From Candidatus Cloacimonadota bacterium (GTDB lineage: Bacteria > Cloacimonadota > Cloacimonadia > Cloacimonadales > JAJBBL01), in NCBI GenBank assembly GCA_019429305.1, contig JAHYIR010000001.1, positions 1 through 64,000 on the forward strand: DNA of 64,000 nucleotides, given 5' to 3'. Positions 19,327 to 38,900 of the stretch are shown in pieces. The notes beneath the pieces were generated by a model. It worked only from the letters and a program-made list of their open reading frames with translations, ran no database searches and was not told the DNA's origin. Both the position numbers and the translations under genes were made by a program. Position 1 is the first letter of the stretch; every line of letters begins with the position of its first letter.

Positions 19327-21209
19327 TGAAGAATATAAGTATTGATGATCTGACAAAAATTGCCGGTTCTGAAAAAGAGCGCTGGGCAAATTATAAAGGG
19401 ATGTTGATGGTCTGTACTGGTACAGGTTGCGTTTCTGCCGGTGGTATGACGATTAGAGATAAGTTCGTGGAGGAACTTAAAAAACATAATCTTTCGGAAG
19501 ACTATCTGACTGTTGGAACAGGTTGTAACGGATTCTGTGCCGTTGGTCCTATCTGTGTAGTGCAACCGGATGGGATCTTTTATCAAAAACTAAAATTGAA
19601 AGATGTGGAAGAGATAGTTGAATCCCACCTTAGTAATGGTGTTGTAGTAGAGAGATGCCTGCATAAAGATCCACTCAGCGGTGAAGTTAATGAAAAGATG
19701 AAAGATATCCAGTTCTTTACTAAGCAGTATTTAATAGCATTAAGAAACAAAGGGTTAATTGACCCGGAGAATATTGATCATTACATAGCTCGTGATGGAT
19801 ATCAGGGACTAAAGAAAGCTCTGACAGAACTTACACCACAAGATATTATCGATTTAGTTAAGAAATCTGCTATTCGCGGAAGAGGAGGCGGTGGTTTCCC
19901 TGCAGGTTGGAAATGGGAAACTGCTTATAAAACTGCCCAAAATAAGAATGAAGAAATCTATATAGTCTGTAATGCAGACGAAGGGGATCCCGGTGCCTAT
20001 ATGGACCGAAGTATAATTGAAACTGATCCTCATACTGTTCTGGAAGGGATGATAATCGGAGCTATAGCTGTGGGTGCGAAAGAGGGATTTATCTATATCC
20101 GAAAAGAATACCCACTGGCAATGGAGAGATTGCAGAAGGCGATTGAACAAGCCCGAGAATATGGGTTACTTGGGAAAAATATCCTCCAAAAGGGTATCGA
20201 CTTTGATATTCATATCCATCGTGGAGCCGGAGCATTTGTCTGTGGTGAATCGAGTGCTTTAATGGCTTCGATGTCTGGTATGGCAGGTGAGCCGCGAGCC
20301 AAGTATGTTCATAATGTTGAAGTTGGTTATCGTGATAAACCGACAGTTCTTAATAATGTGGAAACATGGGCTAATATTCCGGTAATAATCACTAAAGGAG
20401 CTGAATGGTTTGCCCAAATAGGTAGCGGAGATGTTAGCGAGAACCCTTGGAATGGTTCTTCCGGTACCAAGGTTTTCTCTTTAGTAGGGGATATTCACAA
20501 TACCGGTTTAGTTGAAGTCCCTATGGGTATAACCTTGAGAGAGATTATCGAAGAAATTGGCGGAGGAATACCTAATAATAGAGAGTTTAAGGCAGTACAA
20601 ACAGGAGGTCCTTCCGGTGGTTGTTTGCCAGCTAGTAAACTCGATATGCCGGTTGACTTTGATTCTTTAACTGCTGCAGGTTCAATGATGGGTTCCGGTG
20701 GAATGATTGTTATGGATGACAAAACCTGTATGGTGGATGTAGCGAGATACTTTGTCGATTTCCTGATAGATGAATCTTGCGGAAAGTGTACACCATGCCG
20801 TGAGGGGCTATTTGCTCTGAATAAGATTCTTACGAGAATTTGCAACGGCGAAGGAAAAGAACAAGATCTCGAGGAGTTAAGGTCATTATCGGATACTATC
20901 AGAGATGCCAGCTTATGCCAGTTAGGAGGATCGGCTCCCAATCCTGTACTAAGTACAATGAACTATTTCATGGATGAATATATCGAACATATTCGAGAAA
21001 GAAAGTGTCGTGCCGGAGTTTGTAAACCACTGATCAAATATTCTATCAGTGAAGAGCACTGCACCGGTTGTACGTTATGTGCCCGCAATTGCCCTGTAGC
21101 TGCTATAACAGGTGAAACCAAGAAATTGCATGTTATAGATCAAGAAAAATGTATTAAATGTGGTATCTGCTACGAAGTTTGTAATTTTAATGCTGTGGAG
21201 GTGAAATAA
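19323..21209 (+). CDS. NuoF/HydB-like NADH:FMN subunit with extra [2Fe-2S] and ferredoxin domains
   Basis: 628 residues, laid out like HydB of bifurcating hydrogenases and NADP-reducing complexes. N-terminal thioredoxin-like [2Fe-2S] domain (C31, C36, C68, C72); NuoF core with RGRGGGGFPAGWKWE near residue 185 (NADH/FMN glycine-rich loop) and CNADEGDPGAYMDR; SLBB region; [4Fe-4S] ligands C486, C489, C492 and C532; C-terminal two-cluster ferredoxin (C580/583/586/590, C610/613/616/620). This is where NAD+ or NADH would meet the flavin. A tandem ATG (19323, 19326) is possible for the start; AGAAGGAG upstream. Overlaps both neighbours, so stoichiometric expression with them is likely. Confidence 0.93.
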   Translation: MMKNISIDDLTKIAGSEKERWANYKGMLMVCTGTGCVSAGGMTIRDKFVEELKKHNLSEDYLTVGTGCNGFCAVGPICVVQPDGIFYQKLKLKDVEEIVESHLSNGVVVERCLHKDPLSGEVNEKMKDIQFFTKQYLIALRNKGLIDPENIDHYIARDGYQGLKKALTELTPQDIIDLVKKSAIRGRGGGGFPAGWKWETAYKTAQNKNEEIYIVCNADEGDPGAYMDRSIIETDPHTVLEGMIIGAIAVGAKEGFIYIRKEYPLAMERLQKAIEQAREYGLLGKNILQKGIDFDIHIHRGAGAFVCGESSALMASMSGMAGEPRAKYVHNVEVGYRDKPTVLNNVETWANIPVIITKGAEWFAQIGSGDVSENPWNGSSGTKVFSLVGDIHNTGLVEVPMGITLREIIEEIGGGIPNNREFKAVQTGGPSGGCLPASKLDMPVDFDSLTAAGSMMGSGGMIVMDDKTCMVDVARYFVDFLIDESCGKCTPCREGLFALNKILTRICNGEGKEQDLEELRSLSDTIRDASLCQLGGSAPNPVLSTMNYFMDEYIEHIRERKCRAGVCKPLIKYSISEEHCTGCTLCARNCPVAAITGETKKLHVIDQEKCIKCGICYEVCNFNAVEVK

Positions 21210-23209
21210 TGAGTAATCAAATGGTCACAATACTGGTAAATGATAGAAAAGAACTGCAAGTTCAACTGGATACTTTTTTACTTAAACCAATATTAGCTGC
21301 TGGAATAGTAGTTCCTACATTATGTTATCACAAAGACTTAACTCCGGACGGTTCTTGTAGATTGTGTGTATGTGAGATAGAAGTGAAAGGGAAGAGAAGG
21401 TTAGTCACCTCTTGTAATTACCCTGTTAGGGAAAACATCAAAGTTTGGACAGATTCAGAGCGAGTTAAACAGCATCGCCAGAAACTAGCTGAGATGTATT
21501 TAGGTAGATGGCCAAATGTCAAAGTGGTACAAGATGCTGCTAAACAATGCGGAGTAACTGACGGATCAAAATTCAGAAGTGAGTTGACAGAAGAAAGCGA
21601 TAAAGCATGTATCTTATGTGGTAAGTGTGTCCGTGCGTGTAAAGAATTCATCTTGGAAAGAATAATAGATTTTGCCGGAAGAGGAATAAAGCGTCATATA
21701 ACTATGCCTTTTGGACAGGTAGATAAACACTGTATCGGCTGTACTTCATGTGCTTATGTCTGCCCAACCGGAGCTATAGAGATCATTGATGATATGAATC
21801 ATCCCGTTGATCCAAAACTCATTCGTGATCACGGAATGAAGGTCAATGCCGAAATGGCAACTCTTGATAGCCATCAATGTTGCATGCGTGAAGTGGGAAC
21901 AGCAAATATCGTAGAGGTTATGGACCGATATGATCTGTTACCGGTTCATAATTTCAAGTATGGTTCTCATCCCGATACACCCAAAACAGATTCCATCGTT
22001 TTGAGGAAGAAGTATTTTACTCAGGAACATGCAGATGCCTGTTGGCGTGGTTGTTCTATGGCTTGCTCTAAGGCAGTAGATGGATTTGAATTGAAAACAG
22101 GTCCTTATAAGGGAGACAAAGTTGTAGTTGATGGACCGGAATATGAAACAGCAGCAGGTTGTACGAATATGGGTTGTTTCGATCCCGATTTTGTTGTAGA
22201 ATTCAATTTCTACTGCGATACTTACGGAATTGATACAATATCCATGGCAACAGCAACTGCCTTTGCTATGGAATGTTATGAAGCTGGGATACTCACAAAA
22301 GAGGATACCGGAGGCAAAGAACTCAATTTCGGCAACGGAGATGCAGTTCTGGAATGCTTGCATGAGATGTCACGCGGAGAAGGTTTCGGAGTAGAATTGG
22401 GACAGGGCATTAGATATCTGAAAGAAAAGCTCCAGAAGAAATATCCTGATAGAGCTCAATGGTTGCACGATATTGGTATGGAAGTAAAAGGTCTCGAGTA
22501 TTCGGAATATGTCAGCAAAGAATCATTAGCCCAACAGGGTGGTTATGCTATGGCTGTTAAAGGTCCTCAGCACGATGAAGCTTGGCTGATCTTTATGGAT
22601 ATGGTCAATAACCAAATACCGACATTCGAGGATAAAGCAGAAGCGTTATATTATTTCCCGCTGTTCAGAACTTGGTTTGGCTTGATGGGTCTCTGTAAAA
22701 TTGTCTGGAACGATGTAGTCCCTGCCGACAATGCAAAAAAATATCCGCCGCAAGTAGCGGCAAAAATACCAGATCACGTAGAAAATTACTGGAAGTTCTT
22801 TGAAGGGATGACTGGTAAGGAGCTCGATGAACAGAAGATGTTAGATCAGTCAGCAAGAGTTCATAACTTGCAAAGAGTTATGAGCGTTATGATGGGTTAT
22901 GGCAAAAGAGAAGATGACATGCCACCTTACAGGGCTATGGGTCCTGTTACAGAGGAGGAATACCTATCCAGAGAAGATCGTTATGATAAACAACTTCAAG
23001 AAAATCTGGGAGTAGATCCGACAAAACTATCCCTAACAGAAAAGATGGAGATGACCCGTAAACATCGCTTTGATCAATATAATAAGTTAATGGATGCTGC
23101 CTATGAAAGACGTGGTTGGAATAAGCAAGGAATTCCTAAAATAGAGAGATTACAAGAATTAGGAATAGATCTGCCTGAATTAGTCGAGATTGTTCGACCA
23201 TTTCAATAG
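21209..23209 (+). CDS. Fusion: NuoG-type iron-sulfur domain + aldehyde ferredoxin oxidoreductase C-terminal domains
   Basis: 666 residues. Residues 1-200: [2Fe-2S] domain (C39, C50, C53, C69) and two [4Fe-4S] clusters (C134/137/140/144, C175/178/181/185). The HisCys3 segment usual between them in NuoG is not evident. Residues ~230-640: AOR domains 2-3, with ACWRGCSMAC (C278, C282, C286), GIDTISMATATAFAMECYE, GEGFGVELGQGIRYLKEKL, VKGLEYSEY and FGLMGLC (C496, equivalent of the fourth cluster Cys). No AOR N-terminal domain; that is in the first gene. The two halves presumably assemble into one AOR-like active centre wired to NuoE/F. ATG overlaps the preceding TAA. Confidence 0.88.
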   Translation: MSNQMVTILVNDRKELQVQLDTFLLKPILAAGIVVPTLCYHKDLTPDGSCRLCVCEIEVKGKRRLVTSCNYPVRENIKVWTDSERVKQHRQKLAEMYLGRWPNVKVVQDAAKQCGVTDGSKFRSELTEESDKACILCGKCVRACKEFILERIIDFAGRGIKRHITMPFGQVDKHCIGCTSCAYVCPTGAIEIIDDMNHPVDPKLIRDHGMKVNAEMATLDSHQCCMREVGTANIVEVMDRYDLLPVHNFKYGSHPDTPKTDSIVLRKKYFTQEHADACWRGCSMACSKAVDGFELKTGPYKGDKVVVDGPEYETAAGCTNMGCFDPDFVVEFNFYCDTYGIDTISMATATAFAMECYEAGILTKEDTGGKELNFGNGDAVLECLHEMSRGEGFGVELGQGIRYLKEKLQKKYPDRAQWLHDIGMEVKGLEYSEYVSKESLAQQGGYAMAVKGPQHDEAWLIFMDMVNNQIPTFEDKAEALYYFPLFRTWFGLMGLCKIVWNDVVPADNAKKYPPQVAAKIPDHVENYWKFFEGMTGKELDEQKMLDQSARVHNLQRVMSVMMGYGKREDDMPPYRAMGPVTEEEYLSREDRYDKQLQENLGVDPTKLSLTEKMEMTRKHRFDQYNKLMDAAYERRGWNKQGIPKIERLQELGIDLPELVEIVRPFQ

Positions 23210-23287: not shown

Positions 23288-23896
23288 ATGAATATCGAAG
23301 ATTTATTCTTAAGAAATGTTCCCAAGATGAGAGAGAAGCTAAAAGCCAACAAGGTTGGTATAGCAGGGTGTGGTGGTTTAGGAACCAATATAGCTGTTAG
23401 TCTTGTCAGAGCAGGCATTGGTGAGATACTTCTTGCTGACTTCGATAAAGTGGAACTATCTAATCTAAATCGTCAGTATTTCTTTTTGGATGATATAGGT
23501 AAAATGAAGACCGAAGCATTAAAAGAAATCATACAGCGGATAAATCCGGAAGTGAAGATAACGACGATAAATGAAGAACTTACTCCCCAAAATGTCGTAG
23601 AGATTTTCTCTGATATAGATGTAATGGTAGAAGCGTTTGACTTGGCAGACAGAAAGTACTGGCTCATTGACAGCTGGTCTCGTCATCACAAAGAGATCCC
23701 ATTGGTATGTGGTAGCGGAGTAGCCGGTTATGGCAAGAGCAACGAATTAAAAATGGTTCGTATCGGTAATCTCTATGTCTGTGGTGATCAAAGATCAGAT
23801 ATGAAAGATGGACTCTGCTCTGCCCGAGTTGCGTTAGTTGCCAATATGCAGGCAAATACAGTCATTGAGATCATCATGCAGAAGGAGTTTAAATGA
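23288..23896 (+). CDS. ThiF/MoeB-family adenylyltransferase (short form)
   Basis: 202 residues. E1-like Rossmann fold: VGIAGCGGLGTNIAVSLVRAGIG, then ADFDKVELSNLNRQYF (Asp and the ATP-binding NxNRQ) and the acidic DLADRK. These enzymes adenylate the C-terminal GlyGly of a ThiS/MoaD carrier. The next gene, overlapping by four bases, encodes just such a carrier. Because it lies 78 bp after the AOR fusion operon, a role in sulfur transfer for the tungsto/molybdopterin is favoured over thiamine synthesis, for which no thiG or thiH is nearby; that is inference. CX2C zinc pairs typical of MoeB are not seen. Confidence 0.87.
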   Translation: MNIEDLFLRNVPKMREKLKANKVGIAGCGGLGTNIAVSLVRAGIGEILLADFDKVELSNLNRQYFFLDDIGKMKTEALKEIIQRINPEVKITTINEELTPQNVVEIFSDIDVMVEAFDLADRKYWLIDSWSRHHKEIPLVCGSGVAGYGKSNELKMVRIGNLYVCGDQRSDMKDGLCSARVALVANMQANTVIEIIMQKEFK

Positions 23897-26131: not shown

Positions 26132-27096
26132 CCCTGTTCCTTATACCACTCATAAGTTTGTCGCAACTCTTCTGTAAGGTTACTCTCTAAATCAAATCCG
26201 AGAGATTCTTTAGCTTTTCCAACGTCACAGATCCAATTTCCTTCTTTCATTTCTCTTACCTTCTGCAAATTGATCAAAGCAGCTCTCTTGCTTAACCCCC
26301 CTTTAACTTCTCCCCACAAGGCAACTGGATAGACAAGAAATTCAGGAATTCTAATACGTAAAGTTTTCTTTCCCATTGCTTTTTCTAAAGCGCTGATGAA
26401 ATCTTCCCAGCTATAAAATGAGCTGCAGGAAGCAAAAAAGATCTCATTAAAAGCTTGGGGATTATCGAAAGTTCTGTATACCATATCAACCAGACCGGAG
26501 ATATGAATGAGACTGATGTATCTCGGTCGAAAACCAATGATAAAAGATATACCGGAGCGAACGAGTTTAAAATACTGCAAGAAATCTGCATCTCCTGCAC
26601 CGAAAACAGAAGCAGGTCTGATTATTGTCCAATTCTTACGACAGTTATTCATTATCTCTTCTTCTGCCAGCAGTTTGCTTCTACCATAATAGCTGACAGG
26701 TAAACACTCCTCATGTTCTCTCTTCCCGGCAGTTCCTGTACATACTCCTGCTGCTGCCTGACTACTGATAAAGACGAATTGCTTGAGCGACTGGATCTCA
26801 TTGAATATTTTTACTAAATGGTTAGTAAGTTCAACGTTCTGTTGATAGAATTGCTGCCAGTTCTTACCTCGAGTTATGGCTGCGTTATGAACGATGATAT
26901 CTTGATCATGCAAAACAGATTTAACCTGTTCACTATCCCAATAGTCAACTTTAGTTGCTGTATAGTTTTTAGGTAATAAGGACAAATTGGCAGTGTGTCG
27001 GACTAAACCGGTAACCTGACACCCTTTTTCAAGGGAATATTTTACTAAGTTACTACCAACAAAACCATTGGCTCCGGTTATCGCGACTTTAAGCAT
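26122..27096 (-). CDS. NAD-dependent epimerase/dehydratase (extended SDR)
   Basis: 324 residues. Rossmann motif ITGANGFVGSNLVKYSLEKG at residues 6-25, IVHNAAITRG (NAA motif), FISSQAAAG (Ser) and SYYGRSKLLAEE, where Tyr and Lys are the catalytic YxxxK pair. Acts on nucleotide sugars or related hydroxy/keto compounds; substrate not evident. The 3' end overlaps the start of the barrel protein gene by 10 bp. 148 bp of unremarkable sequence separates it from the broken gene upstream. Confidence 0.9.
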   Translation of the reverse strand: MLKVAITGANGFVGSNLVKYSLEKGCQVTGLVRHTANLSLLPKNYTATKVDYWDSEQVKSVLHDQDIIVHNAAITRGKNWQQFYQQNVELTNHLVKIFNEIQSLKQFVFISSQAAAGVCTGTAGKREHEECLPVSYYGRSKLLAEEEIMNNCRKNWTIIRPASVFGAGDADFLQYFKLVRSGISFIIGFRPRYISLIHISGLVDMVYRTFDNPQAFNEIFFASCSSFYSWEDFISALEKAMGKKTLRIRIPEFLVYPVALWGEVKGGLSKRAALINLQKVREMKEGNWICDVGKAKESLGFDLESNLTEELRQTYEWYKEQGWL

Positions 27097-27244
27097 ATTT
27101 TTCCTATTCGAATCTCTCTAATAATAATTGCTGATTACTATTAAATAGCAAGAAATTGAGTCAAACTTTTTGTTGCAGAAAGACCGAGGAAAACACTTCT
27201 TCGTGGCTGCTTCCGAGCTCGACGAAGTCATTCATAGGAAGGAT

Positions 27245-28573
27245 CTATTTCAATAGCAGCATTTTCCCTATAGTTTTTTCTGTCTCTGTTTCTAACACAG
27301 GGAAGTAAATCCCGCTTGGTAAGAGATTGCCCTTTTTATCTGCTCCATCCCATACGATAGAATGGTCTCCGTTTTGTAAAGAATCATCAAGAAGGGTTAC
27401 TATACGGTTCCCTTTAATAGAATATATAGAGAGATTGACATTCGCCGATTCAGGAAGACTGAACCGAATTGTAGTTCGATAGTTGAAGGGATTCGGATAA
27501 TTCGTTATCTGTAAAGATTTGCTCGGGATAATAAATTCTTCTTCCGTAGAGACCTCATCTATCTCATTTCTGTATCTGAAAACGCCGTCTCCTATAGTGC
27601 CAAGAAACAGTTCATCTAATCCTTCAAGAGCACGGTATTCTAAACTATAAGTCATTCTTTTGCCGAATCCACCGTTTACCACATCCCAAGTTTCTCCACT
27701 ATCAGAACTAATATAAAGGAGAAAATCTTCATAGACATATCTTTGATGCGATGAAGCATAGACGATCTGATTATTATGTTTGCTGACAGCCATTCCCCAG
27801 ATATCAAATTCACTTTCCATCATTACAGTCCAATTATAACCACCATCAGTACTTTTAATCACTCTGCCTTCCATACCAACATAAAGTGTTTGATCATCAA
27901 CAGGATCGAATGCTATAGATTCAGAGGCATTATCTCCGCCAACTAATGTAGCAAGGTTGAATTCTAACCAGTTATCACCACCATCATAAGATTTTAACAG
28001 AAATGGGGTCAAAGAACCATATTCTCCGCCAACTCAGATAAGATTAGGATGTTCAGGGTGAATTTTTACAAAATGATATCCTAAAGCTATCATACTCCAG
28101 TCTCCGGCTACTAATTCCCATATGTTAGAGGGTTCAATCAATCTGAGAACATAAGATATACCGGTAGAAAATATTATATGAGGAGTTTCCGGATGATAGT
28201 CTATAGATAGAGTTTGAAAGTAAAAATCATCGGGATCTATCCCTTCAGAAAAAGGATACCACAATATTCCGCCATTATCGGTTCGAAGAATAGGGTGTTC
28301 GGAATTTAAGAAACTCATTCCGGCAATTATAGTTTCATGGTTCAATACTGTAAGACAATTAACATATTGTTCTTCTAATCCCAGATGAACCCATAAGGTG
28401 TCTTCTTGATCGATGTTCTTTTTATAGATACCATTATCTGTTGCTGCATAAAGATACTCTTCATAGATTGTCAAATCGAGTACAAAGTGATTAGAAAGGC
28501 CAAGGTGAGTCCACTCACTAAATAATGAACATGTCGTTAACGACAATAAGAGTACTAATAAGATAGTTTTCAT
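27245..28573 (-). pseudogene. Secreted beta-propeller-like protein with C-terminal sorting domain, interrupted by an in-frame TGA
   Basis: Two reading frames (28573-28034 and 28012-27245) are in the same phase, separated only by a TGA at 28034-28036. Read through, 442 residues: signal peptide MKTILLVLLLSLTTCSLFS, repeats of the sortilin/photosynthesis-stability-factor kind (LRTDNGGILWYPF, LKSYDGGDNWLEF, IKSTDGGYNWTVM, ISSDSGETWDVV), then a C-terminal sorting domain beginning NYPNPFNYRTTIRFSLPES and ending KMLLLK. Good ribosome site (AAGGAGGAT). The codon falls in HPNLI-stop-VGGEYG, inside a repeat, and elsewhere in the window TGA is a normal stop (mutL, gap). So this looks like a recent nonsense mutation or a base-call error. 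Confidence 0.75.
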
Positions 28574-28834
28574 AGCATATCCTCCTTATTATTTCATCAC
28601 CCACAAAGATGCCTGTAGTTAACTGTCATAAGCCAATTTGTCAAGTTATTTATTTATGCCCTTATCCTATTAATCGATGCTCATTTTGGGCTTAGTTCTA
28701 ATTTTTATCAAGAGATGATTTTGTTAATCTACAGAGGATTTAGAATCATAAGCAATCTTATTATAAGATAGTTGCTATAGCAATAATTTCAACAAAAATT
28801 AGTTACACTTCTCTGAATTCAATACTTATTTTAG

Positions 28835-28862
28835 TTGACATTTCGGGTTGATAAAATATGAA
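28835..28862 (+). promoter_or_regulatory. Probable sigma-70 promoter of the ECF transporter operon
   Basis: TTGACA at 28835-28840 and TATGAA at 28857-28862, 16 bp apart. Perfect -35, 4/6 -10. Transcription would start near 28869, giving a leader of about 185 nt. The part of the intergenic region before it (28574-28834) shows nothing I can name. Confidence 0.45.
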
Positions 28863-28869
28863 GCAGTAA

Positions 28870-28990
28870 CGCCGAGCAATATGGTCTAACCCATTTGGAA
28901 TGATCAGTTGCCGATAGGGTAAAGAGGGAAACTTCTTTGCCTCCCCTGTTCTTCTTTAAGAAGAGAAGATTTTGGAAAGGTGAAAAAAGC
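28870..28990 (+). ncRNA. Structured 5' leader of the ECF transporter operon (possible riboswitch, class unknown)
   Basis: Contains a 7-bp hairpin closed by a GAAA tetraloop (AAAGAGG 28921-28927 with CTTCTTT 28932-28938), an ACCC/GGGT helix enclosing TTGG/CCGA, and further on a TCTTCT-TTA-AGAAGA hairpin. The upstream half resembles the 3' half of c-di-GMP-I riboswitches (ACGC...GGTCTAA...CAGTTGCCGA), but its 5' partner strand is missing. ECF operons are commonly riboswitch-controlled. Only a structure-aware search can decide. Confidence 0.3.
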
Positions 28991-29055
28991 AAATATGAAC
29001 ACTTCCTGGATCTTCTTTCTTTGAGATAATAGTATAGAAATTAAAAGAGGTTACT

Positions 29056-29628
29056 TTGTCACGTTGGTTGAGTAAATTTTCGACTCAGGATTTGATTATC
29101 ATAGCGATAATAGCGGCTCTCGGTTTAGCGGTAAAGCCGGTTATTACCCCTATTGTGCATCTGGTTTCTGCACCACTACTGATCCCCGGCGGTTCTTTAG
29201 CGGGTGGTTTCTATATGCTCTGGTTCGGTTTGATAGTTGTATTGGTTCCCCGTAAAGGTTCGGCAATTTTAACTGCATTTGTCCAAGGTGTAGTTACTCT
29301 GATCATTGGTCATTTTGGTCATCATGGGGTGATGAGCATTCTGATCTATACTGCACCGGGAGTTGCTGTGGAGGTTGTTGCTTTGTTCTTTCGAGATAAG
29401 AGTTCTGTCATTGCCCAGACAACAATCTGCGCCGGTGCTAATCTTGTCGGATCGTTACTGGTAGCACTTCTCATAATGAGATTACCGACGATTCCATTGG
29501 CAATATCTCTCACAACTGCTTTGATTTCAGGTATTGGAGGTGGAATAGTTAGCTATGCTATCATAAAACAATTAAAAAAACACCGGTTCGAACTACTCAC
29601 AAGAGAAACAGAAGGAGATAGTGATTAA
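29056..29628 (+). CDS. ECF transporter substrate-capture (S) component, YkoE-like
   Basis: 190 residues, five to six membrane helices, short termini. Starts with TTG (29056-29058) behind AAAAGAGG; no ATG fits. Pattern of GGSLAGGFYMLWFGLIVVLVPRKGSAILTAF followed by VQGVVTLIIG and a final GGGIVSYAII resembles the thiamin/HMP-type S component YkoE, and the operon carries the matching ATPases and T subunit. Substrate not provable; a vitamin or its precursor is expected. Stop overlaps the next start by one base. Confidence 0.75.
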   Translation: MSRWLSKFSTQDLIIIAIIAALGLAVKPVITPIVHLVSAPLLIPGGSLAGGFYMLWFGLIVVLVPRKGSAILTAFVQGVVTLIIGHFGHHGVMSILIYTAPGVAVEVVALFFRDKSSVIAQTTICAGANLVGSLLVALLIMRLPTIPLAISLTTALISGIGGGIVSYAIIKQLKKHRFELLTRETEGDSD

Positions 29629-31001
29629 TGAAGCGAATTTTCTTGATCATAGGAATACTATTGTTCCTAATTGTATTGAGTTTAGTCATTTATCACTACT
29701 TCCACGAATTTGCCGGTTATGAAATCTATGGGGGAGAAGCAACCTTTAGCTTGATCCGGGAAACAGGGAATTTAGTTGATATCTTAAAACAACACGACGC
29801 AGGGGAGATTTACGAGATTCTTATCTTCGATGAGCAAAACAAAACAATAATTATTCAGGAAGAAAACTTAGCCGATTTTCAGGTAAAGAGAGGAGTAAGA
29901 GGTTTCTTTTTATCTGATCTGCTGACTAATACCAGATTAATTGATGTTAAAAGGATCGTTATTCAGACCAATAACTCTCATTTTGGAGTTTATCATCTCA
30001 GCTATACCGAGGAACTATCTTTTTATCCTATCTATGATTTGATCAAGGAGATGATCTATTATCAAGGTTCTGAAGGGGCTAGTTATTTTTATGGTAGTTA
30101 TAATCCATCTGATGAAGTATTTACCGTTCCTATAGAAGCTGATTCTATCCTCTTTGTATATAGTAGCGGTGAAGAAGAGTGGAGAATAGTCGATTCTCCA
30201 GAGAATTTCTCTGTTTATCAGGAGCTAATCTTTTCCTATTCTCCTGATCAACAAGAGAGAAAGCTATTGAAAGCTATCTGGGAAAAGCCACCTCTACTCT
30301 CAGCATTAGATATGAATGCGAAATTAAAACAAGCTGTGGGAGAGAAACCGACTTTAGCAATCTTTATTGACGGTTTGGGCTATAAACTTTGGAATTATGC
30401 TGAGGAGATGGGATATACAAATTCTTTCCCTGAGATGCTAATTTTGCCTATGAGATCGGTCTTCCCACCAAAAACTATCTATAACTATTATGCCTTTGGA
30501 ACAGGGGATTTATTACCGGACAATCTATCAGAGCGGAAAGAGATTTTCGCAGATCTCTTCTTTTCAGGAGTAAATGGTGTTATTATTGAAGGGGAGATGC
30601 AGATCTTCTTTTCGCCTTATGAACAAATACTACATACAAAGCAAGCTCATTATGATAATATCGATGTTAGGATCTTTAACTCTGCTCTGGAAGTCTTAAA
30701 CGATTATGATTTTGTCTTCATCCATTTTCACGACATCGACAATAATGGGCATAGATTTGGTCCTTACAGCAGCGAAGTACTGGAAGCTATTCAGAGAACA
30801 GGCAATTTTATTACTGAGTTGAAAAACAGATGGAAAGGAAGCTTTTTTATCTTCTCTGATCATGGGATGCACTGTCATTATGAAGAAGATCAGAAAAATT
30901 GTAGTGGAGCTCACTATACAGCACAAGCAGAAGATATTATCGCAATTTTTTCGGATATTTCTGAAGATATCTATCAAGGAGTATTAGATGAAAAACAGTA
31001 A
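29628..31001 (+). CDS. Membrane-anchored phosphodiesterase/alkaline-phosphatase-superfamily protein
   Basis: 457 residues. One N-terminal membrane helix (residues ~4-24) and the rest outside the cytoplasm. The C-terminal half (from ~235) matches the type I phosphodiesterase/nucleotide pyrophosphatase fold: LAIFIDGLGYKLW (metal-binding Asp), FVFIHFHDIDNNGHRFGPYS (D and H ligands) and FFIFSDHGMH (DHG). The usual Thr/Ser nucleophile after the first Asp is not clear by eye (KTIYNYYAFGTGD is a candidate). The N-terminal half is unrecognised. Being inside an ECF operon, it may strip phosphate or a nucleotide from a vitamin before uptake; inference only. Confidence 0.65.
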   Translation: MKRIFLIIGILLFLIVLSLVIYHYFHEFAGYEIYGGEATFSLIRETGNLVDILKQHDAGEIYEILIFDEQNKTIIIQEENLADFQVKRGVRGFFLSDLLTNTRLIDVKRIVIQTNNSHFGVYHLSYTEELSFYPIYDLIKEMIYYQGSEGASYFYGSYNPSDEVFTVPIEADSILFVYSSGEEEWRIVDSPENFSVYQELIFSYSPDQQERKLLKAIWEKPPLLSALDMNAKLKQAVGEKPTLAIFIDGLGYKLWNYAEEMGYTNSFPEMLILPMRSVFPPKTIYNYYAFGTGDLLPDNLSERKEIFADLFFSGVNGVIIEGEMQIFFSPYEQILHTKQAHYDNIDVRIFNSALEVLNDYDFVFIHFHDIDNNGHRFGPYSSEVLEAIQRTGNFITELKNRWKGSFFIFSDHGMHCHYEEDQKNCSGAHYTAQAEDIIAIFSDISEDIYQGVLDEKQ

Positions 31002-31431
31002 GAAAGCATGGTTAGCCATTTTACTGGTCTTAATTATTTTGAGCGCAGTTTTGTTATCATTGATCTATATACGTTATCACGATTTAGAGCATATCAACGG
31101 ACTGCAGATCATTTGGGGAGATCTTACTATTCATCCTTCCCACAACGATTTAGAAAATATACCCCTAACGACCATTAAGATGGATAACAGGGCTGAATTT
31201 TATGGTTATCTGGTAAAGGATCTGATCAATTATTATAGTATCAAATGGGCAGACATAAGCGTAGTTTACTTCACAGCTCGTGATGGCAGTAGAATAGTAG
31301 TTTCAAAAGATGAAATAGAGAGCAGAGATGTCCTGTTAGCTCTTGATTATAGTGAATTCCGTTTAGTTTTTCCGCAGGACAGTTTTCCTAACAGATGGCT
31401 AAAAAACATTATCTTAGTGGAGTTGAAGTAA
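30988..31431 (+). CDS. Small membrane-anchored protein resembling part of the sulfite-oxidase (molybdopterin-binding) fold
   Basis: 147 residues; N-terminal membrane helix at ~8-27. The exposed part (FYGYLVKDLINYYSIKWADISVVYFTARDGSRIVVSKDEI... FRLVFPQDSFPNRWLKNIILVEL) follows the G-v-L-L-xD-L...V-x-F-x-A-x-DG...RLV-P...W-l-k-x-I sequence of the SUOX domain, but it lacks the Cys ligand region, so it probably does not bind molybdopterin. The start overlaps the previous gene by 14 bp. Accessory role in the ECF system, perhaps substrate binding, is a guess. Confidence 0.5.
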   Translation: MKNSKKAWLAILLVLIILSAVLLSLIYIRYHDLEHINGLQIIWGDLTIHPSHNDLENIPLTTIKMDNRAEFYGYLVKDLINYYSIKWADISVVYFTARDGSRIVVSKDEIESRDVLLALDYSEFRLVFPQDSFPNRWLKNIILVELK

Positions 31432-31437
31432 CTAAAA

Positions 31438-32097
31438 ATGCTCACTTTGAATAACTACACTTTTCGTTATCCCGGTGATGATAAATTTCTCTGGCAGCCG
31501 TTGAATTTTTCTTTTAATCGAGGAGAGATCATTCTGATCAAAGGTAGTAACGGTAGTGGGAAAACCACTCTACTATATAGCTTATGTGGAATAATCCCGC
31601 AAGCAATAAGTGGGGAGATGAAAGGTGAGATTCTTTTCAATCAAGAATCAGTATCAAATATACCTCTCAAAGAGATTGCGACGGAGATCAATATCCTCTT
31701 TCAGGAGCCGGACAAACAGATTTTTATGCCCTTTGTAGAGGAAGAAATTGCCTTTGGTCCGGAAAATCTCGCTTTGGATCGGGAAGACATAAAAAGAAGA
31801 ATTGATAATCTTCTTGATAGGTTTGATATAGTTGAACTTCGTAAAAGAGCTACCGCCTCTCTCTCATACGGAGAAAAAAAGTTGGTAGTTTTAGCGGCGA
31901 TCTTAGCGATCTCACCCGCTGTTATCCTGATTGATGAATTTTCGGCAGGCATAGGTGATAATATGATAAACCGTTTTGTATCTTATCTAAGGGAACTGAA
32001 GGATGAGGGGAAGACAATAGTCCTCGCTGAACACCATCCTGCTGTGAGAGAGATAGCAGCTAAAGTTATTGATCTCGATGCATTGAAATATGGATAA
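31438..32097 (+). CDS. ECF transporter ATPase, first
   Basis: 219 residues. Walker A GSNGSGKTT (about 36-44), Q-loop FQEPDKQIFMPFVEEEIAFGPEN, signature SLSYGEKK in place of LSGGQ, Walker B ILIDEFSAG, H-loop AEHH. The Q-loop followed by an E-E-I-A-FGPEN stretch is characteristic of EcfA-type proteins. Powers uptake with its partner 32090-32761, overlapped by 8 bp. Cytoplasmic, membrane-associated. Confidence 0.9.
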   Translation: MLTLNNYTFRYPGDDKFLWQPLNFSFNRGEIILIKGSNGSGKTTLLYSLCGIIPQAISGEMKGEILFNQESVSNIPLKEIATEINILFQEPDKQIFMPFVEEEIAFGPENLALDREDIKRRIDNLLDRFDIVELRKRATASLSYGEKKLVVLAAILAISPAVILIDEFSAGIGDNMINRFVSYLRELKDEGKTIVLAEHHPAVREIAAKVIDLDALKYG

Positions 32098-32761
32098 GAT
32101 TTATCGCATCTCCAATCTCTCTTTTTCGTATGAAGAAGAGATCAATGTTTTTTCCGCAGTTAACATTGACTTACCCTCAAGTGAGATATCTGTCATCGTT
32201 GGCAAGAACGGAGCCGGCAAAACAACATTAGCTCGCATTCTGACCGGATTAACAAAGGGTTATACCGGATCGATCTTGCTGGATAATATCGAATTATCCA
32301 AGCAAAGAAGGGGAACGATCATTGATCAAGTTCTCTATGTAAAGCAAGATCTGATCGGGAATTTTATGGGTATTACACCCGATGAAGATCTGATGATCTG
32401 GCAGAATAGGTTTATTGAGGAGGATAATAGAAAGAAAAAACAGGATAGAGAAAATGCTCTTTATCAATTAGGGATAACCCACCTATTCAACAAACCTGTT
32501 TGGGAATTGAGTTACGGTCAGAAAAGAAGATCAATGCTCTCTGTTTCATCACTCTTGGCTAACAAATTCTGGATCCTTGATGAACCAACGGCATCTCTCG
32601 ATGAACAGGGTATCTCACTGTTAATGAAGTTAATAGCAGAAAAAAAAGAGACTAACAGCGGGATGTTAATTCTGACACATAGACCGGAACTCTTTAATAA
32701 ATTAACCAATAGCGTCTATTTCATAAGAGAGAGCCAAATAATCAAAAACTCTCAATCTTAG
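32090..32761 (+). CDS. ECF transporter ATPase, second
   Basis: 223 residues. Walker A GKNGAGKTT, signature ELSYGQKRR, Walker B FWILDEPTASLD, H-loop LTHR. Q-loop is VKQDLIGNFMGIT, less like standard EcfA. Forms the ATPase pair with the upstream protein. Starts inside the upstream gene. Confidence 0.9.
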   Translation: MDKIYRISNLSFSYEEEINVFSAVNIDLPSSEISVIVGKNGAGKTTLARILTGLTKGYTGSILLDNIELSKQRRGTIIDQVLYVKQDLIGNFMGITPDEDLMIWQNRFIEEDNRKKKQDRENALYQLGITHLFNKPVWELSYGQKRRSMLSVSSLLANKFWILDEPTASLDEQGISLLMKLIAEKKETNSGMLILTHRPELFNKLTNSVYFIRESQIIKNSQS

Positions 32762-32768
32762 AGTTGGT

Positions 32769-33503
32769 ATGCACAGACTAATAAATGTCCGAACGATTTT
32801 GTTAACAGCTCTAACGCTTTCTAGTATTGCGGTTTTCAGACAAAACATCTTAACACAGCTAATGGTGGCTTTTATAGCTATCCTGCTCCTTATGCTACAA
32901 AGAGACAGAAGATCACTATTCGGTAAGCTAATTGGTAGGATAAGGCATTTCTGGTTTGCTATAGTAGCGATAATTATTCTTCAGATCTTATTCAGACAAG
33001 ATGGAGCTGTCTATCTGAGTATCTGGTTTGTTAAGGTTACCGATGTAGGGGTAATGTATGGTCTATCTGTCGGGATGAGGTTGATTAACCTGATCCTGAT
33101 TGCCGGTCTCCTGTTTAACATCTCATCTTCCGAGTATATGCTCGCTTTCAAAGCTTGGAGAATACCCTACGAGATCTCCTTTCTGGTAACTACGGTCATC
33201 CGTTTCATTCCCGATTATTATCGCCTGTTCATTGCCTACCGTGAGACGATGTATCTACGGAATATAAATCTGAAAGAATTAAGTATCAGAAATAAATTAT
33301 CTGCTCTGGTATCCTTGTTGATCCCGGCTCTGACAACCAATTTGGCAGATGTAAAGTATCGGGCTATAGCTCTCGATCTAAAAGGATTCAGATATTCCAA
33401 ACAGAGAACTAATCTTTACGAATCGAAGCTGAAAGCCCATGATTATCTGATACAGTTCATTACACTCGCAGGATTTGTTTTACTTATTGTTTTTATCTTA
33501 TGA
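32769..33503 (+). CDS. ECF transporter transmembrane (T) component
   Basis: 244 residues with about five membrane helices. Contains AWRIPYEISFLVTTVIRFIPDYY and the coupling-helix segment KYRAIALDLKGFRYSKQRT, corresponding to the Ala-Arg motifs that contact the two ATPases in EcfT. Completes the S-A-A-T set of a dedicated (group I) ECF importer. Ends the operon; no clear terminator. Confidence 0.85.
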   Translation: MHRLINVRTILLTALTLSSIAVFRQNILTQLMVAFIAILLLMLQRDRRSLFGKLIGRIRHFWFAIVAIIILQILFRQDGAVYLSIWFVKVTDVGVMYGLSVGMRLINLILIAGLLFNISSSEYMLAFKAWRIPYEISFLVTTVIRFIPDYYRLFIAYRETMYLRNINLKELSIRNKLSALVSLLIPALTTNLADVKYRAIALDLKGFRYSKQRTNLYESKLKAHDYLIQFITLAGFVLLIVFIL

Positions 33504-33598
33504 AGAGAATCAGCAAAACAGATACTGGTAGCATGATTATAGCGTCGAGAGACATTTTACTTGACGATAAAAACCGGCTCTTATTTTTCTGAACTTAA

Positions 33599-33686
33599 GC
33601 TGAAGTGGTGAAATTGGTAGACACGCTAGGTTCAGGGTCTAGTGGGTGAATTGCCCATGGGGGTTCGAGTCCCCCCTTCAGCACCA
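33599..33686 (+). tRNA. tRNA-Leu (anticodon CAG)
   Basis: 88 nt with CCA encoded. Acceptor GCTGAAG (33599-33605) pairs CTTCAGC (33676-33682); D arm GTG/CAC; anticodon stem CTAGG/TCTAG with loop TTCAGGG, anticodon CAG at 33633-33635; long class II variable arm (TGGG...CCCA); T arm GGGGG-TTCGAGT-CCCCC; discriminator A. A TTGACG (33561-33566) and TATTTT (33582-33587) upstream may be its promoter. Confidence 0.97.
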
Positions 33687-33820
33687 GTTTTGTATTACCT
33701 GATCGATTTAATACATTATGATAGATAATTGATATGAAAAGTACTATAAGTTTTACTCCTGTTGATCAACCATGTAATCTTCAAAACAATTTTTCTCCTT
33801 GCTAATCCTTTCGTAGGAGC

Positions 33821-33870
33821 ATCTATGTTTATCCTTTTTTTAATCTGTGCACATCGGTGGTTGATGCTTA
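33821..33870. repeat. Dispersed ~50-bp intergenic repeat, copy 1
   Basis: Begins ATCTATGTTTATC and ends ATCGGTGGTTGATGCTTA. About four-fifths of bases match the copy at 55994-56044, including one indel. Both copies lie between genes. The core AATCxGTGxxxATCxGTGGTT resembles short repeats widespread in FCB genomes (from memory). Confidence 0.5.
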
Positions 33871-33921
33871 CTTTCATAACTATTTAGGGGATCAGCAGGA
33901 TATTTATCAGGGAGTTCTATT

Positions 33922-34659
33922 ATGACTAGATTAGAAAAGAAAATCATCAGTGAGATCGATCATGCAAATGATATATGGCAACTCTTCTCAGAGGGGGAGA
34001 GGGTGCTGTTAGGAATATCCGGAGGTAAAGACTCAATTGCTCTCTACCATCTCTTACAAAATTATCAACTAAAACTGGAAGCTCTCCATATCAGATTGAG
34101 TTCTCGCTTCAGTATCGACTTCATTACCCAGAATAACCTTACAGATAAACTTGAGGTCATCGAGACCGATATCTATGATCAAATTAAAAAGTCTGATAAC
34201 AGTCTCAATACATGCTTTGTCTGTTCCAGAGAGAGAAGGAAGAGAATACTGGAGTATGCTAACGATAAAGGTATCAAGAAGATCGTTTTTGGTCATCACC
34301 GCAATGATGTTGTGGAAACCTTGTTGCTCAATCTTCTTTTCAGCAGAGAGATCAGTACTCTCTTACCAAAGCAAACTCTTTTTGAAGGTAGATTTGAAAT
34401 TATCAGGCCCCTTTATCTGGTTGAAGAACAACTGCTAATATCTCTCCAGAAAGAGAAGGGTTGGCAGATATCTAAACCGGTTTGCGAAGAATCAATATCC
34501 TCCAAGCGCCAGTATATGCGAGACCTTCTTACCCAAATTCAGGACCAACATCCAAAGATAGATATCAGAGATAACATCTTCTCTTCTTTAAAATCGGTAA
34601 AAACGTCGTTTATGCCGTTCCCATTTATAGAACAAGGAGGAGGCCGAGATGAGGAATAA
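33922..34659 (+). CDS. TtcA/TilS-superfamily PP-loop tRNA-modifying protein
   Basis: 245 residues. PP-loop SGGKDS near residue 34, CX2C in NTCFVCSRERRKR, then GHHRNDVVETLLLN and a third Cys in ISKPVCEESI. This is the TtcA pattern (three Cys holding an Fe-S cluster; 2-thiolation of C32 in tRNA), although Ncs6-like enzymes share parts. ATG follows GGGAG. Sits beside a tRNA gene, probably by chance. Confidence 0.8.
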   Translation: MTRLEKKIISEIDHANDIWQLFSEGERVLLGISGGKDSIALYHLLQNYQLKLEALHIRLSSRFSIDFITQNNLTDKLEVIETDIYDQIKKSDNSLNTCFVCSRERRKRILEYANDKGIKKIVFGHHRNDVVETLLLNLLFSREISTLLPKQTLFEGRFEIIRPLYLVEEQLLISLQKEKGWQISKPVCEESISSKRQYMRDLLTQIQDQHPKIDIRDNIFSSLKSVKTSFMPFPFIEQGGGRDEE

Positions 34660-34669
34660 ATATTTGCTA

Positions 34670-34698
34670 TTGACACTATTAGATATTATCTAATAGAT
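34670..34698 (+). promoter_or_regulatory. Promoter with 7-1-7 Fur/PerR-type operator in front of rubrerythrin
   Basis: A perfect -35 TTGACA (34670-34675) is followed immediately by a perfect 10-1-10 inverted repeat, CTATTAGATA-T-TATCTAATAG (34676-34696), which fills the spacer and overlaps the -10 area (TAATAG/ATAGAT). Its core TTAGATA-T-TATCTAA has the 7-1-7 geometry of Fur-family boxes (PerR: TTATAAT-N-ATTATAA). Rubrerythrins are classic PerR targets in anaerobes. Binding protein inferred. Confidence 0.6.
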
Positions 34699-34725
34699 AT
34701 GAAAAAGAATACTGAAGGAGGAAAA

Positions 34726-35223
34726 ATGGAGAAGGTTGAATTATTAGAGGCAATTAAAAAAGGAATCATGGCAGAACGGGACAGTATCGAACTCTATCAG
34801 AAAGCTTTAAACAGTGCTGAAGATGAAGAAGTGCGATCATTTTTTCAGGAAAGGGTCGAAGAAGAAAAACAACATTATAACTATCTTGTGAATTATTCTC
34901 ATGATATTGAACAGGACAAAGATTTAGTAGATTATACACAAGATCTACCCGATCCGGATCCAGCAAAGATATTCAGCGATTCATTTCTGAAAAGAATTGG
35001 CGAAAAACAGACCCTCTTTTCAGCTATTTCTACAGCTGTTTTATTAGAGAAAGATTCTCTACAACACTATAAAAACTTAGCTCAGGATGCCGAACAACCT
35101 GAGTTGAAAAGCTTTTTCAGCAGAATGGGACATTGGGAGACCCAGCATTACATCGATGTTCTCAACATCCAAAAAGAGGCAGAAAGATACTATTGGGAAT
35201 TAAACGAGTTCGAACCTTTTTAA
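34726..35223 (+). CDS. Rubrerythrin-like diiron protein (no rubredoxin domain)
   Basis: 165 residues from the ATG at 34726, chosen because GGAGG lies just before it; the ATG at 34699 falls in the promoter. Ferritin-like four-helix bundle: helix with MAERDSIELYQKAL (Glu), EERVEEEKQHYNYL (ExxH), VLLEKDSLQHYKNL (Glu) and HWETQHYIDVL (ExxH), the two ExxH pairs that bind a diiron site. No Cys for a rubredoxin domain. Likely reduces hydrogen peroxide or stores/handles iron in this anaerobe. The Fur/PerR-type operator agrees with a stress role. Confidence 0.88.
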   Translation: MEKVELLEAIKKGIMAERDSIELYQKALNSAEDEEVRSFFQERVEEEKQHYNYLVNYSHDIEQDKDLVDYTQDLPDPDPAKIFSDSFLKRIGEKQTLFSAISTAVLLEKDSLQHYKNLAQDAEQPELKSFFSRMGHWETQHYIDVLNIQKEAERYYWELNEFEPF

Positions 35224-35230
35224 AGTAAGA

Positions 35231-35932
35231 TTATTTTTTAAATAATTCCGGATTCTCTTCGATAAACTGATCTTTGAGTTTCCAAAAGGTAATGTCTTTG
35301 GACAGTTTTTTCTTACTATAACAGTAACCAATAACCGATACTATAAGTGCACCAATTGTATTAACAATGAAATCTCTCATAGTATCTAAAACCCCTAATC
35401 TGGTATCGAAAACCCCGTACACTTCTTCTAAATTACGTGCTTTCTGCATGTTAACACCGAATAGTGTGTCAACACCAAATTCAAATATTTCCCATAATAC
35501 TCCTACTGTCATAGCGAAGCAGAAAGTGAAAAGAGCAATGAAAAAGGGGCTGAGTTTTACGTGAATATTCTTATCTTTATTGAGGGCATAGATCAACAAG
35601 AAGCCAATATATCCCAGAATAATGGCAGAGATAGAATGCAACATACTATCCCACCAACTATACCGGTAAAAGTAATTCTGGATCTCACCCAGATACATAG
35701 AAGCAAAGATGAAAAGGAGGATTATTATTTGGAACAGAGCAGGGATATGGATTTTCGTTCTTTTAGAAAAGATAGTCGGTAAGAGGAAGAGTAAGAGTGT
35801 CAGGATGGCACTGAGTAATATCTCCCATTGATAATTAATGAAGTTGTAAACAATGGCTGCAATGGTTATAACAATAAAGAAATAACGCATTATTGGTTCG
35901 ATCTTTTCAGCAATCATTTTCTTCCTTTTCAT
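35231..35932 (-). CDS. YjdF/DUF2238-like multi-pass membrane protein
   Basis: 233 residues with about six membrane helices. Conserved-looking WWDSMLHSISAIILGYIGFLL, VLWEIFEFGVDTLFGVNMQ and DTMRDFIVNTIGALIVSVIGY place it in the YjdF-like family, function unknown. Convergent with rubrerythrin; an AT-rich 7-bp hairpin (35230-35246) at the junction could end transcription in both directions. AAGGAAG ribosome site. Confidence 0.75.
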   Translation of the reverse strand: MKRKKMIAEKIEPIMRYFFIVITIAAIVYNFINYQWEILLSAILTLLLFLLPTIFSKRTKIHIPALFQIIILLFIFASMYLGEIQNYFYRYSWWDSMLHSISAIILGYIGFLLIYALNKDKNIHVKLSPFFIALFTFCFAMTVGVLWEIFEFGVDTLFGVNMQKARNLEEVYGVFDTRLGVLDTMRDFIVNTIGALIVSVIGYCYSKKKLSKDITFWKLKDQFIEENPELFKK

Positions 35933-35963
35933 ATTGAAATCTTCCTTGAGGTTACTTAAATAC

Positions 35964-38900
35964 TTATTCTACCTGCTTAGTTCGAATGAATAAATAATAT
36001 ACTGATGGAATAATGAATAGTGTCAAGAGCGCAGAAACAATTACACCACCAATACTGACAATGCCCATTGCCTGCCGGAATTCCCTGGCAGCAGTTCCGA
36101 TTCCCAAAGCCATGGGCAGCATTCCCAGAATTATAGCAAAAGTTGCCATTACTATCGGTTTTAATTTTGTAGGACAGGCGATGAGCAGAGCTGTTCTGAC
36201 TTCATCCCCGCGTCGGACAAGTTGATTGGTATAATCTAGCAGAAGGATAGCATTATTGACTACTATTCCCACCAGCATGATGATAGCCATCATGGAAACT
36301 ATATTCATGGTTTGACCTGTTACAAAGAGAGCCAGAAAAACACCGATCAGAGCCAAAGGGAGAGTAGCAAGAATAAATATTGGTTGGACAAAACTCTCTA
36401 AGATAGCGGCGAGCAACATATAAGTCAATAATACAGCCAAGATGAATGTTCGGATCATATCTGTTATTGTTTCATCAAGCATTTGGCTTTCACCACCCCA
36501 TTCTACACGAAATCCCGGTGGTAATTCTACTTCATTTGTGATGACCTGATTGATTTGTCCGGTTATGTCACCTAAAACAGCTCCACCTGTTAGATCCCCT
36601 GTAAATTCAATGGCAGCAAATTTATCTTTGCGGAAAAGCATACTGGAGCCGGTAGCAAAGTCTAAATCTGCTAACTGAGAAAAACTATAAACTCCGCTTT
36701 GTGTAACAATAGGAAGGTCAGCTATTTTTGCCGGAGTATCATAAGAAGGGCGATCAAGCAGCACTTTTACATCGTATTCCCTATCTCCTTCCCGATATTG
36801 TGTTGCGACTAATCCCTCAACTGAGGAGCGGAGATTAATAGCCAGTTCTTGACTCGTCACTCCAGCCGCTGACATCCTGTCTAATCTAGGTTTGAAAGTC
36901 AGCTCCGGTTTTCCCGGTCTTAATGAAGTATTTAGATTGGCTAAGCCGGGTATATCCTTTAGCTTATCATAGATTTCTTGGGACATTTCTTCTAAGCGAT
37001 CTAAATCCTGTCCCATTACAAAAAAGTTGATCGGAGAATCTCCACCGCCTATAGATGAAATGGCTGAAACTCTTATTTTGGTATTAGGTATTCCGGATAA
37101 ATCTTCAATGAATATATCGGCAATCTGTCGAGTAGTTAAATTACGCTCTTTGGCAGCGATAAGATTGACACTTGCCCGAGCTACGTTGCTTCCGACATTT
37201 AGAGTACCGATGGAACCGATATTAGTTAAGATAAAATCTACTTCCGAATGTTGAGAGATAATATCTTTAACTTGCTCCATTACAAGTGCTGTCTCGGAAA
37301 GATCATAACCTTCCGGTAGCTCAACTTCTACTCTAATATTTCCTTCATCGAGAGATGGTAAAAACTCAAATCCTACAGCAGCAGCAATAAAGAAACTCAG
37401 GACTAACAAAATAAATACCGAACCGACGAAAGAGATCGCGATCTTGCGGTTTTTTATCAAGAATCCAAGGATCTTTTTATAGAATGCTTCCCATTTCATG
37501 AAAATCTTTTCCATCTTCTTACTAAAGCGGTTATCTTTCTGATTTTGTGGCAAAATTTGTGATGCCAGCATAGGTGTAAGAGTAAAAGAGATCAATAAAG
37601 AAAACAGAGTAGCGAAAGTTACTACCAGAGCAAATTCGGTGAAAAACTGACCTGCCATAGAAGTCATCGTTGCTATGGGTAGGAAAACGACAATATTGGT
37701 CAGAGTAGAAGCAATTACAGCAGTTGCGATCTCGGAGGTGCCCAGATCAGCGGCTACTTTACGAGTATTCCCCATATTCTTGTGACGAAAGATGTTTTCC
37801 AGTACGATCACTGAGTTTGTAACCAAGATCCCTACAGCGGTTGAGAATCCCATCAAGGTCATCATATTCAAAGTAAAACCGGCGATCTGCATCAAAATAA
37901 AGGTTGATATTATGGAAGTTGGCATTGCCAAAGCGACAATAAAAGTGGAGCGCAGATCATTGAGGAACAAGAATAAGAGGATACCGGTAAATAGTATTCC
38001 GAGCAGAATATTTCCCATAGTATCGTTGACTGAACTTTCAATAAAGTCGGCTCGATCAGTCACAATATACAGCTTCATATTTTCCGGAAGTTCTGCCAGG
38101 ATATCAGGCCATTCTCTATGTACTTGTCTCGAGATGTTAACCGGGTTACCTTCCGGACTCGGAATTAAGCTGAAGCGAATGATGTTATCTTCTCTAACCC
38201 CTGTTCTGTTATCAAAAAAGATAGCTCTTTCTCGAATTTCAGAACCGGTATCGATGATCTCTGCGATCTCATGTAATTTTCTCAAACCGGAAATAGTTGG
38301 TATCTCCAGATTACGAAGAGTTTCCAGATCTCCTATTTGTCCTTGTAATCTAACGGCAAATTCCTGTCCTCTTTGTTGAAACTGTCCACCCGGCATATCC
38401 ATATTGTAAGCAGCTAAGATTCCCGAGAGTTGAGGCAAGGATATGGCGTTCTGTTCTACAGTTTGACGATTCAGAACTACATGGATCTCCCTTTTCTGAC
38501 CACCGCTGATCTCGACTCGGGCTATACCCTCTATTTGTGAGAAACGATCTCTTAATCTTTGATCGGCATAATCATACAATTCGGTTCCACTGACCTCGCC
38601 ACTGAATACTATATCCATTACCGGAATAGCAGAGATATCCCAAGTTAGAGCAATCGGTCTTTCGGCATCTCGTGGCAGTTCATTCAGGATAGCATCGATT
38701 TTTTCTTTTACTTCTCGGATCGCTACTTCCTGACTCTTTCTCATACTGAAACGCATCATCACAAAAGAGACATTTTCCATTGAATAGGTTTGGATAAAAT
38801 CTACCTGACTGATAATGGAAACTGCATCTTCTATACGACGACTGATCTGGGATTCGATCTCTTGAGGACCTGCTCCGACATAGACAGTCTGTACAACAAC

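Follow-up and report, generated by a model that had tools for sequence, protein, structure and literature searches.

A predicted energy-coupling factor importer for preformed tungsten or molybdenum pyranopterin in Cloacimonadota

Group I energy-coupling factor (ECF) importers of the CbiMNQO/BioMNY type transport vitamins and combine an S component, two ATP-binding cassette (ABC) ATPases and a T component of the CbiQ family in one operon. The same components are encoded at positions 29056 to 33503 of a 64,000-nucleotide stretch of DNA from Candidatus Cloacimonadota bacterium (assembly GCA_019429305.1, contig JAHYIR010000001.1, positions 1 to 64,000), which is called the window in the following. 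Here they enclose genes for two predicted extracytoplasmic proteins. One of these is similar to PruR (7KOS, 7KOM, 7RKB), an extracytoplasmic protein with a truncated SUOX-type fold and no conserved Mo-ligating cysteine. The other shares catalytic residues and fold with the ENPP/NPP nucleotide pyrophosphatases. A further related system is BtuB-BtuF-BtuCD, in which a TonB-dependent receptor, a periplasmic binding protein and an inner-membrane ABC importer are combined with a riboswitch for the uptake of a scarce metal cofactor. The molybdenum cofactor (Moco) is usually regarded as too unstable for sharing. Work in C. elegans describes dietary Moco as being moved by unknown mechanisms (PMC9793310). 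Judging from the sequence analysis presented here, the operon in the window is likely to encode a dedicated ECF importer of preformed pyranopterin (tungstopterin or molybdopterin), most likely in the metal-loaded form.

The operon consists of a riboswitch and six genes:

28858-28998, plus strand: Moco/Tuco riboswitch aptamer RF01055 without P3 stem, in the 5' leader of the operon (Rfam scan)
29056-29628, plus strand: S component, 190 aa, TTG start, distant member of the YkoE/PF09819 family (PF09819, E 2.7e-12)
29628-31001, plus strand: predicted membrane-anchored extracytoplasmic phosphodiesterase/nucleotide pyrophosphatase (PDE), 457 aa (PF01663, E 1.4e-13)
30988-31431, plus strand: predicted membrane-anchored extracytoplasmic SUOX/PruR-fold protein, 147 aa (model and profile)
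31438-32097, plus strand: ECF ATPase 1 (A1; PF00005, E 2e-24; closest NCBIfam cbiO/ECF_ATPase_1)
32090-32761, plus strand: ECF ATPase 2 (A2; PF00005, E 4.9e-27)
32769-33503, plus strand: ECF T component of the CbiQ family (PF02361, E 1.3e-17)

The original prediction had placed six genes with these identities at these positions, and the Pfam and NCBIfam profiles agree with it. The gene order is S, PDE, SUOX-like, A, A, T. Overlaps of 1 nt (S/PDE), 14 nt (PDE/SUOX-like) and 8 nt (A1/A2) and remaining gaps of only 6-7 nt are consistent with a single transcript. PF09819, PF02361 and two copies of PF00005 all exceed the cut-off in one operon; by its gene content the six-gene unit is an ECF importer, for which ATP-driven uptake is predicted. 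The N-termini of the PDE and the SUOX-like protein show a positive charge followed by one hydrophobic helix, and in the alignment a lipobox-like cysteine replaces this helix in several PDE homologues. Both proteins are thus most likely facing the periplasm. An ECF importer with anchored extracytoplasmic proteins between S and the A-A-T module had been proposed and proved right in outline. Its extent had been given as a packed unit of five to six genes; the packing holds, but the unit starts earlier, with the riboswitch in front of S. This riboswitch had been overlooked, as had the absence of cofactor synthesis genes, the PruR match and the outer-membrane receptor arm.

The aptamer reached 55.9 bits against a gathering score of 36 (E 1.5e-11) and is located 57 nt before the start codon of S. 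According to the printed Rfam alignments, from which the P3 status was taken throughout, the P3 stem is absent. RF01055 members without P3 go with the use of a tungsten cofactor (Regulski 2008, PMC2408646), which assigns the aptamer in the window to the tungsten-cofactor (Tuco) type. Both aptamers of the genome that harbors the window are without P3, and among the 15 aptamers aligned from the phylum 14 lack it; L028, with P3, is the exception. The second aptamer of this genome (contig C11, position 42304) precedes genes for a TonB-dependent receptor and a lipoprotein, which are encoded away from the operon. Paired RF01055 aptamers were also observed, in tandem in L057 (G057, contig C130, 1469-2368) and in divergent orientation in G048 (contig C3, 48954-49509).

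The class of the riboswitch also bears on the possibility that the operon imports a thiamine precursor, with the PDE trimming a phosphorylated form of it. The S component falls into PF09819 (YkoE), a family linked to thiamine metabolism, and a ThiF-like gene is present in the window at 23288-23896. However, within the 9 kb around the operon (27000-36000) no thiamine pyrophosphate riboswitch was found, and RF01055 and tRNA were the sole Rfam matches above the cut-off. Furthermore, the genome already has a ThiB-type thiamine-binding protein, and the phylogenetic pattern of S tracks tungsten/molybdenum enzymes and MobB, as detailed below. Based on riboswitch class and co-occurrence the thiamine importer was rejected, and we regard it as very unlikely.

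To compare supply and demand of the cofactor, we analyzed the genome of the window (2.39 Mb, 99.9% complete) together with a sample of 125 Cloacimonadota genomes. Searches for the MoaA C-domain, MoaC, MoeA and MoaE, each positive in 11 of 14 control genomes, found none of them in the genome of the window. Across the phylum sample the MoaA C-domain was detected in no genome (two additional matches were weak), MoaC in three, MoeA in two and MoaE in none. From this inventory the genome appears to be unable to make or to metallate the pterin, which favors the metal-loaded cofactor as cargo. On the side of demand, an aldehyde ferredoxin oxidoreductase domain is present in 83 of the 125 genomes, including that of the window, which also encodes a formate dehydrogenase alpha subunit (TIGR01591, 852 bits against an equivalog cut-off of 666). 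One enzyme of the first kind is encoded in the window itself:

18010-23209, plus strand: split tungsten-type aldehyde oxidoreductase, with AFOR_N-NuoE at 18010-19326, NuoF at 19323-21209 and Fe-S plus AFOR_C at 21209-23209

The domain matches (PF02730, E 1.6e-49; PF01257, E 1.1e-40; PF01512, E 9.4e-44; PF01314, E 3.4e-92) look like those of an NAD-linked tungsten oxidoreductase with an unusual domain arrangement, and this enzyme is a probable client of the importer. A layout of this kind was also seen in G059, at 62-72% identity, and in G073, whose first gene shows a further split. In G059 an RF01055 aptamer spanning 90 nt ends just upstream of the first gene of the oxidoreductase.

Homologues of the S component with strong scores were found in 83 of the 125 genomes, and the identity to 12 relatives was 40-74%. 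A riboswitch on the same strand precedes 38 of these 83 genes at a distance of no more than 1.6 kb. The operon content and order are kept in relatives, as an operon of this kind had been expected to show: lipoprotein, S, a secreted protein of about 300 aa matching PF00174 (SUOX, molybdopterin-binding domain), PDE, SUOX-like protein, A, A, TonB-dependent receptor, T and sometimes MobB. In the genome of the window MobB is encoded at position 35012 of contig C11. The best NCBIfam match of the receptor was the BtuB-type TIGR01779, at 98 bits (cut-off 600). A profile of the S component gave no match in the PDB, and no relatives of S were found in plasmids. In several loci a gene for a small protein, some 200-215 aa long, comes after MobB (L197 at 7004-8382 in G000, contig C11; L049, L162, L192, L198 and L200). 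In L049, L162 and L192 this protein shows weak similarity to APH-type kinases, and it may be a salvage kinase partner. In addition, L162, L169, L192 and L200 share a conserved group of roughly four genes, with products of 368, 231, 275 and 213 aa, that stands ahead of MobB, in some cases with T on its other side.

The S component co-occurs with the riboswitch (p 2e-12), with the aldehyde oxidoreductase (p 6e-6) and with MobB (p 1e-6), where the p-values ignore phylogeny. All four features are present in 55 genomes and all four are missing in 21. Within a single family of 50 genomes the corresponding values for S were 1e-6 (riboswitch), 1e-5 (enzyme) and 4e-9 (MobB). A similar pattern was seen in genus g9: S, riboswitch, oxidoreductase and MobB are combined in G032 alone, and the searches found none of the four in its five sister species G029, G030, G031, G033 and G034.

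Relatives of S outside the phylum were identified in Clostridium ragsdalei and several Family XIII Clostridiales. There, S is followed by the gene for an anchored protein, which matches PF00174 in L117 and L121. In L121 the genes moeA-moaA-moaC, a moeB-like gene and a molybdopterin-dependent enzyme of the xanthine dehydrogenase type adjoin S, and in L118 and L119 a mobB-like gene is located beside S. The Rfam scan found no RF01055 aptamer above the cut-off in the clostridial loci. Their gene content lends independent support to a link to the cofactor; L121 would also be compatible with oxyanion transport.

Such transport of a metal oxyanion, tungstate or molybdate, by the ECF importer in the manner of ModABC and TupABC would require that the pterin is made by unrecognised enzymes. 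Oxyanion transporters are known targets of Moco/Tuco riboswitches (PMC2408646), and besides the position of S next to moa and moeA genes in L121, the lack of a ModA/TupA-type binding protein in the genome of the window speaks for it; the sole PF13531 match in this genome is the ThiB-type thiamine-binding protein, and the same profile detected a TupA-type protein in G092. However, oxyanion import leaves the missing MoaA, MoaC and MoeA unexplained, and a TonB-dependent receptor, a PDE and proteins with a pterin-binding fold would be of little use in taking up a small oxyanion. A comparison with the three moaC genomes G058, G063 and G092, all of them without S, is instructive in this respect. In G092 the riboswitch precedes tungstate-transporter-like genes, moeA, moaA, moaC, a MOSC-domain-like gene and mog, whereas in G058 it precedes a ModA-type transporter and, separately, an oxidoreductase. 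Thus, moa-bearing genomes have a TupA-type (G092) or ModA-type (G058) transporter behind the switch, and one switch class seems to govern synthesis where it is present and the ECF/receptor genes where it is not. Taken together, we consider oxyanion import improbable. The moaC clusters of G092 (L159), G058 (L160) and G063 (L171) all contain MOSC-domain-like genes and mog, and L159 and L160 contain moeA and moaA as well.

The SUOX-like protein gave no direct match to Pfam, but the name given to it in the original prediction holds. Clostridial proteins at the equivalent operon position match PF00174 above the cut-off, an hhalign comparison with the family of the PF00174 proteins of about 300 aa yielded 98.9% probability, and the model (predicted local distance difference test score, pLDDT, 92.8) matches SUOX-fold structures of PruR. 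The top seven Foldseek matches of this model were all PruR pterin-binding proteins (E 1.7e-5 to 1.4e-4, TM 0.57-0.62), one of them solved with neopterin. PruR was also first in a profile search against the PDB (best match 7kom, E 6.8e-4). The alignments (A3/A5) show a conserved motif RLxxPxDxFxxRWLKN and no conserved cysteine. A catalytic Moco enzyme was rejected because a conserved Mo-ligating cysteine is lacking; judging from the model, the protein is probably a pterin-binding accessory.

As PruR binds simple pterins, this match could also fit a metal-free precursor as substrate, such as cyclic pyranopterin monophosphate or molybdopterin, or a different pterin converted by the cell. Since not even the moaA-bearing relatives have MoaE, the later steps may follow an unrecognised pathway. 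On the other hand, MoeA, which is responsible for metal insertion, was seen only in moaA-bearing relatives and is missing in the genome of the window, where a metal-free product is not obviously finishable. In addition, it is the completed cofactor to which this class of riboswitch responds. Import of a precursor is therefore unlikely in our opinion, albeit somewhat less so than import of an oxyanion.

The PDE comprises an N-terminal helix, a domain of unknown fold (about 28-215) and a catalytic domain of the NPP type (about 225-445). Its N-terminal domain reached an hhalign probability of 23.5% with the SUOX fold. The model (pLDDT 80) matched the structures of ENPP1/ENPP3 and PorX. All seven expected active-site residues, D248, T283, D371, H375, D411, H412 and H429, are conserved or nearly so in the alignment. 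In the profile comparison with ENPP1, T283 aligns with the nucleophile region and D371/H375 and D411/H412 with the metal-site motifs; with D248 and H429, the set of seven residues known from the NPP family is complete. The metal ligands on which the proposed activity depends are therefore present together with the threonine nucleophile, both in the alignment and in the ENPP1 profile.

These data can be combined into a model for uptake of the preformed cofactor. Passage of the scarce cofactor through the outer membrane would be the task of the TonB-dependent receptor and the lipoprotein. The anchored NPP-type PDE may then, in the periplasm, cleave the pyrophosphate of dinucleotide forms, e.g. 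molybdopterin guanine dinucleotide (MGD), to yield the mononucleotide pterin, which the anchored SUOX/PruR-fold protein would hold and hand over to S. Uptake would be powered by the A-A-T module. Inside the cell the aldehyde oxidoreductase would use the cofactor, and MobB would assist in guanylylation of the cofactor destined for formate dehydrogenase. The riboswitch is expected to lower operon expression once the cofactor suffices. The outline of trimming before capture had already been proposed for "a vitamin", which left the substrate unspecified; we infer a metal-loaded pyranopterin. The chances are about even that the genes form a complete route from the outer membrane to the cytoplasm for a metal-loaded tungsten pyranopterin, and that most Cloacimonadota are scavengers of cofactor released by other microbes.

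Several observations weigh against import of a preformed cofactor. The PruR pocket was reported as probably too small for Moco (PMC13259868). The genome sample consists almost entirely of metagenome-assembled genomes, and the co-occurrence statistics share the limit on phylogeny given above. MobA was outside the set of synthesis genes searched, and the absence of MoaE even from moaA-bearing genomes leaves pterin synthesis in the phylum incompletely explained. With the thresholds used, 15 genomes have a client enzyme without S and moaC, four of them of high quality, and 14 genomes have S without aldehyde oxidoreductase and formate dehydrogenase. These 14 genomes would fit import of some other compound, with the Moco riboswitch tying the operon only indirectly to the cofactor status; operons of this kind repeatedly contain both MobB and accessory proteins with a Moco/pterin-binding fold, however, and we give this explanation hardly any credit, even less than the thiamine importer. 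Finally, the PDE is not universal. With the PDE of the window as query only 12 genomes were matched, two of them very weakly, and some operons of relatives contain its N-terminal domain only or no PDE. As the full-length PDE is less common than S, it is to be seen as an accessory and not as a core part, and its essentiality is doubtful.

If the cofactor importer is confirmed, concrete genes would be available for the import of pyranopterins, whose passage across membranes is an open question. Cofactor auxotrophy and cross-feeding would be predicted across a whole anaerobic phylum, the S-component family, which extends to Clostridium ragsdalei and other Clostridia, would gain a function, and transport of the cofactor itself would join the known Moco riboswitch regulon.

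Apart from the operon, the window contains at 27245-28573 two minus-strand open reading frames 21 nt apart, with a signal-peptide N-terminus and a BNR/FlgD-type C-terminal part. The pair resembles one gene for a secreted protein interrupted by a stop or a frameshift.

In the open literature searched, with subscription journals outside the scope, no description of a Moco/molybdopterin importer of this kind was found; a paper on the type 11 secretion system (T11SS) suggested molybdopterin uptake in passing. Compared with the known systems, the locus shows both shared and distinct features. YkoE, the thiamine-related S component, shares the family profile (PF09819) with the S component described here and differs in riboswitch class, neighbours and phylogenetic pattern. 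The genes of ModABC, TupABC and WtpABC can be under the control of RF01055 riboswitches as well, but these importers show no sequence relation beyond the ABC ATPases, and the operon contains no oxyanion-binding protein. In contrast to the signalling protein PruR, the SUOX-like protein is membrane-anchored, encoded in a transporter operon and without a DcpA-type partner: its neighbours are ECF genes, and no DcpA/DTB regulator gene adjoins it. The PDE differs from the ENPP/NPP enzymes by an extra N-terminal domain, the membrane anchor and its location in a cofactor-import operon. Relative to BtuB-BtuF-BtuCD, an ECF module replaces BtuCD, and riboswitch and accessory proteins are of another type. 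The group I ECF importers, in turn, lack the predicted tungsten/molybdenum pyranopterin substrate, the PDE and SUOX-fold proteins, the Moco/Tuco riboswitch and the outer-membrane receptor arm. The ECF architecture is therefore known, whereas the predicted substrate, the regulation and the accessory set appear to be new.

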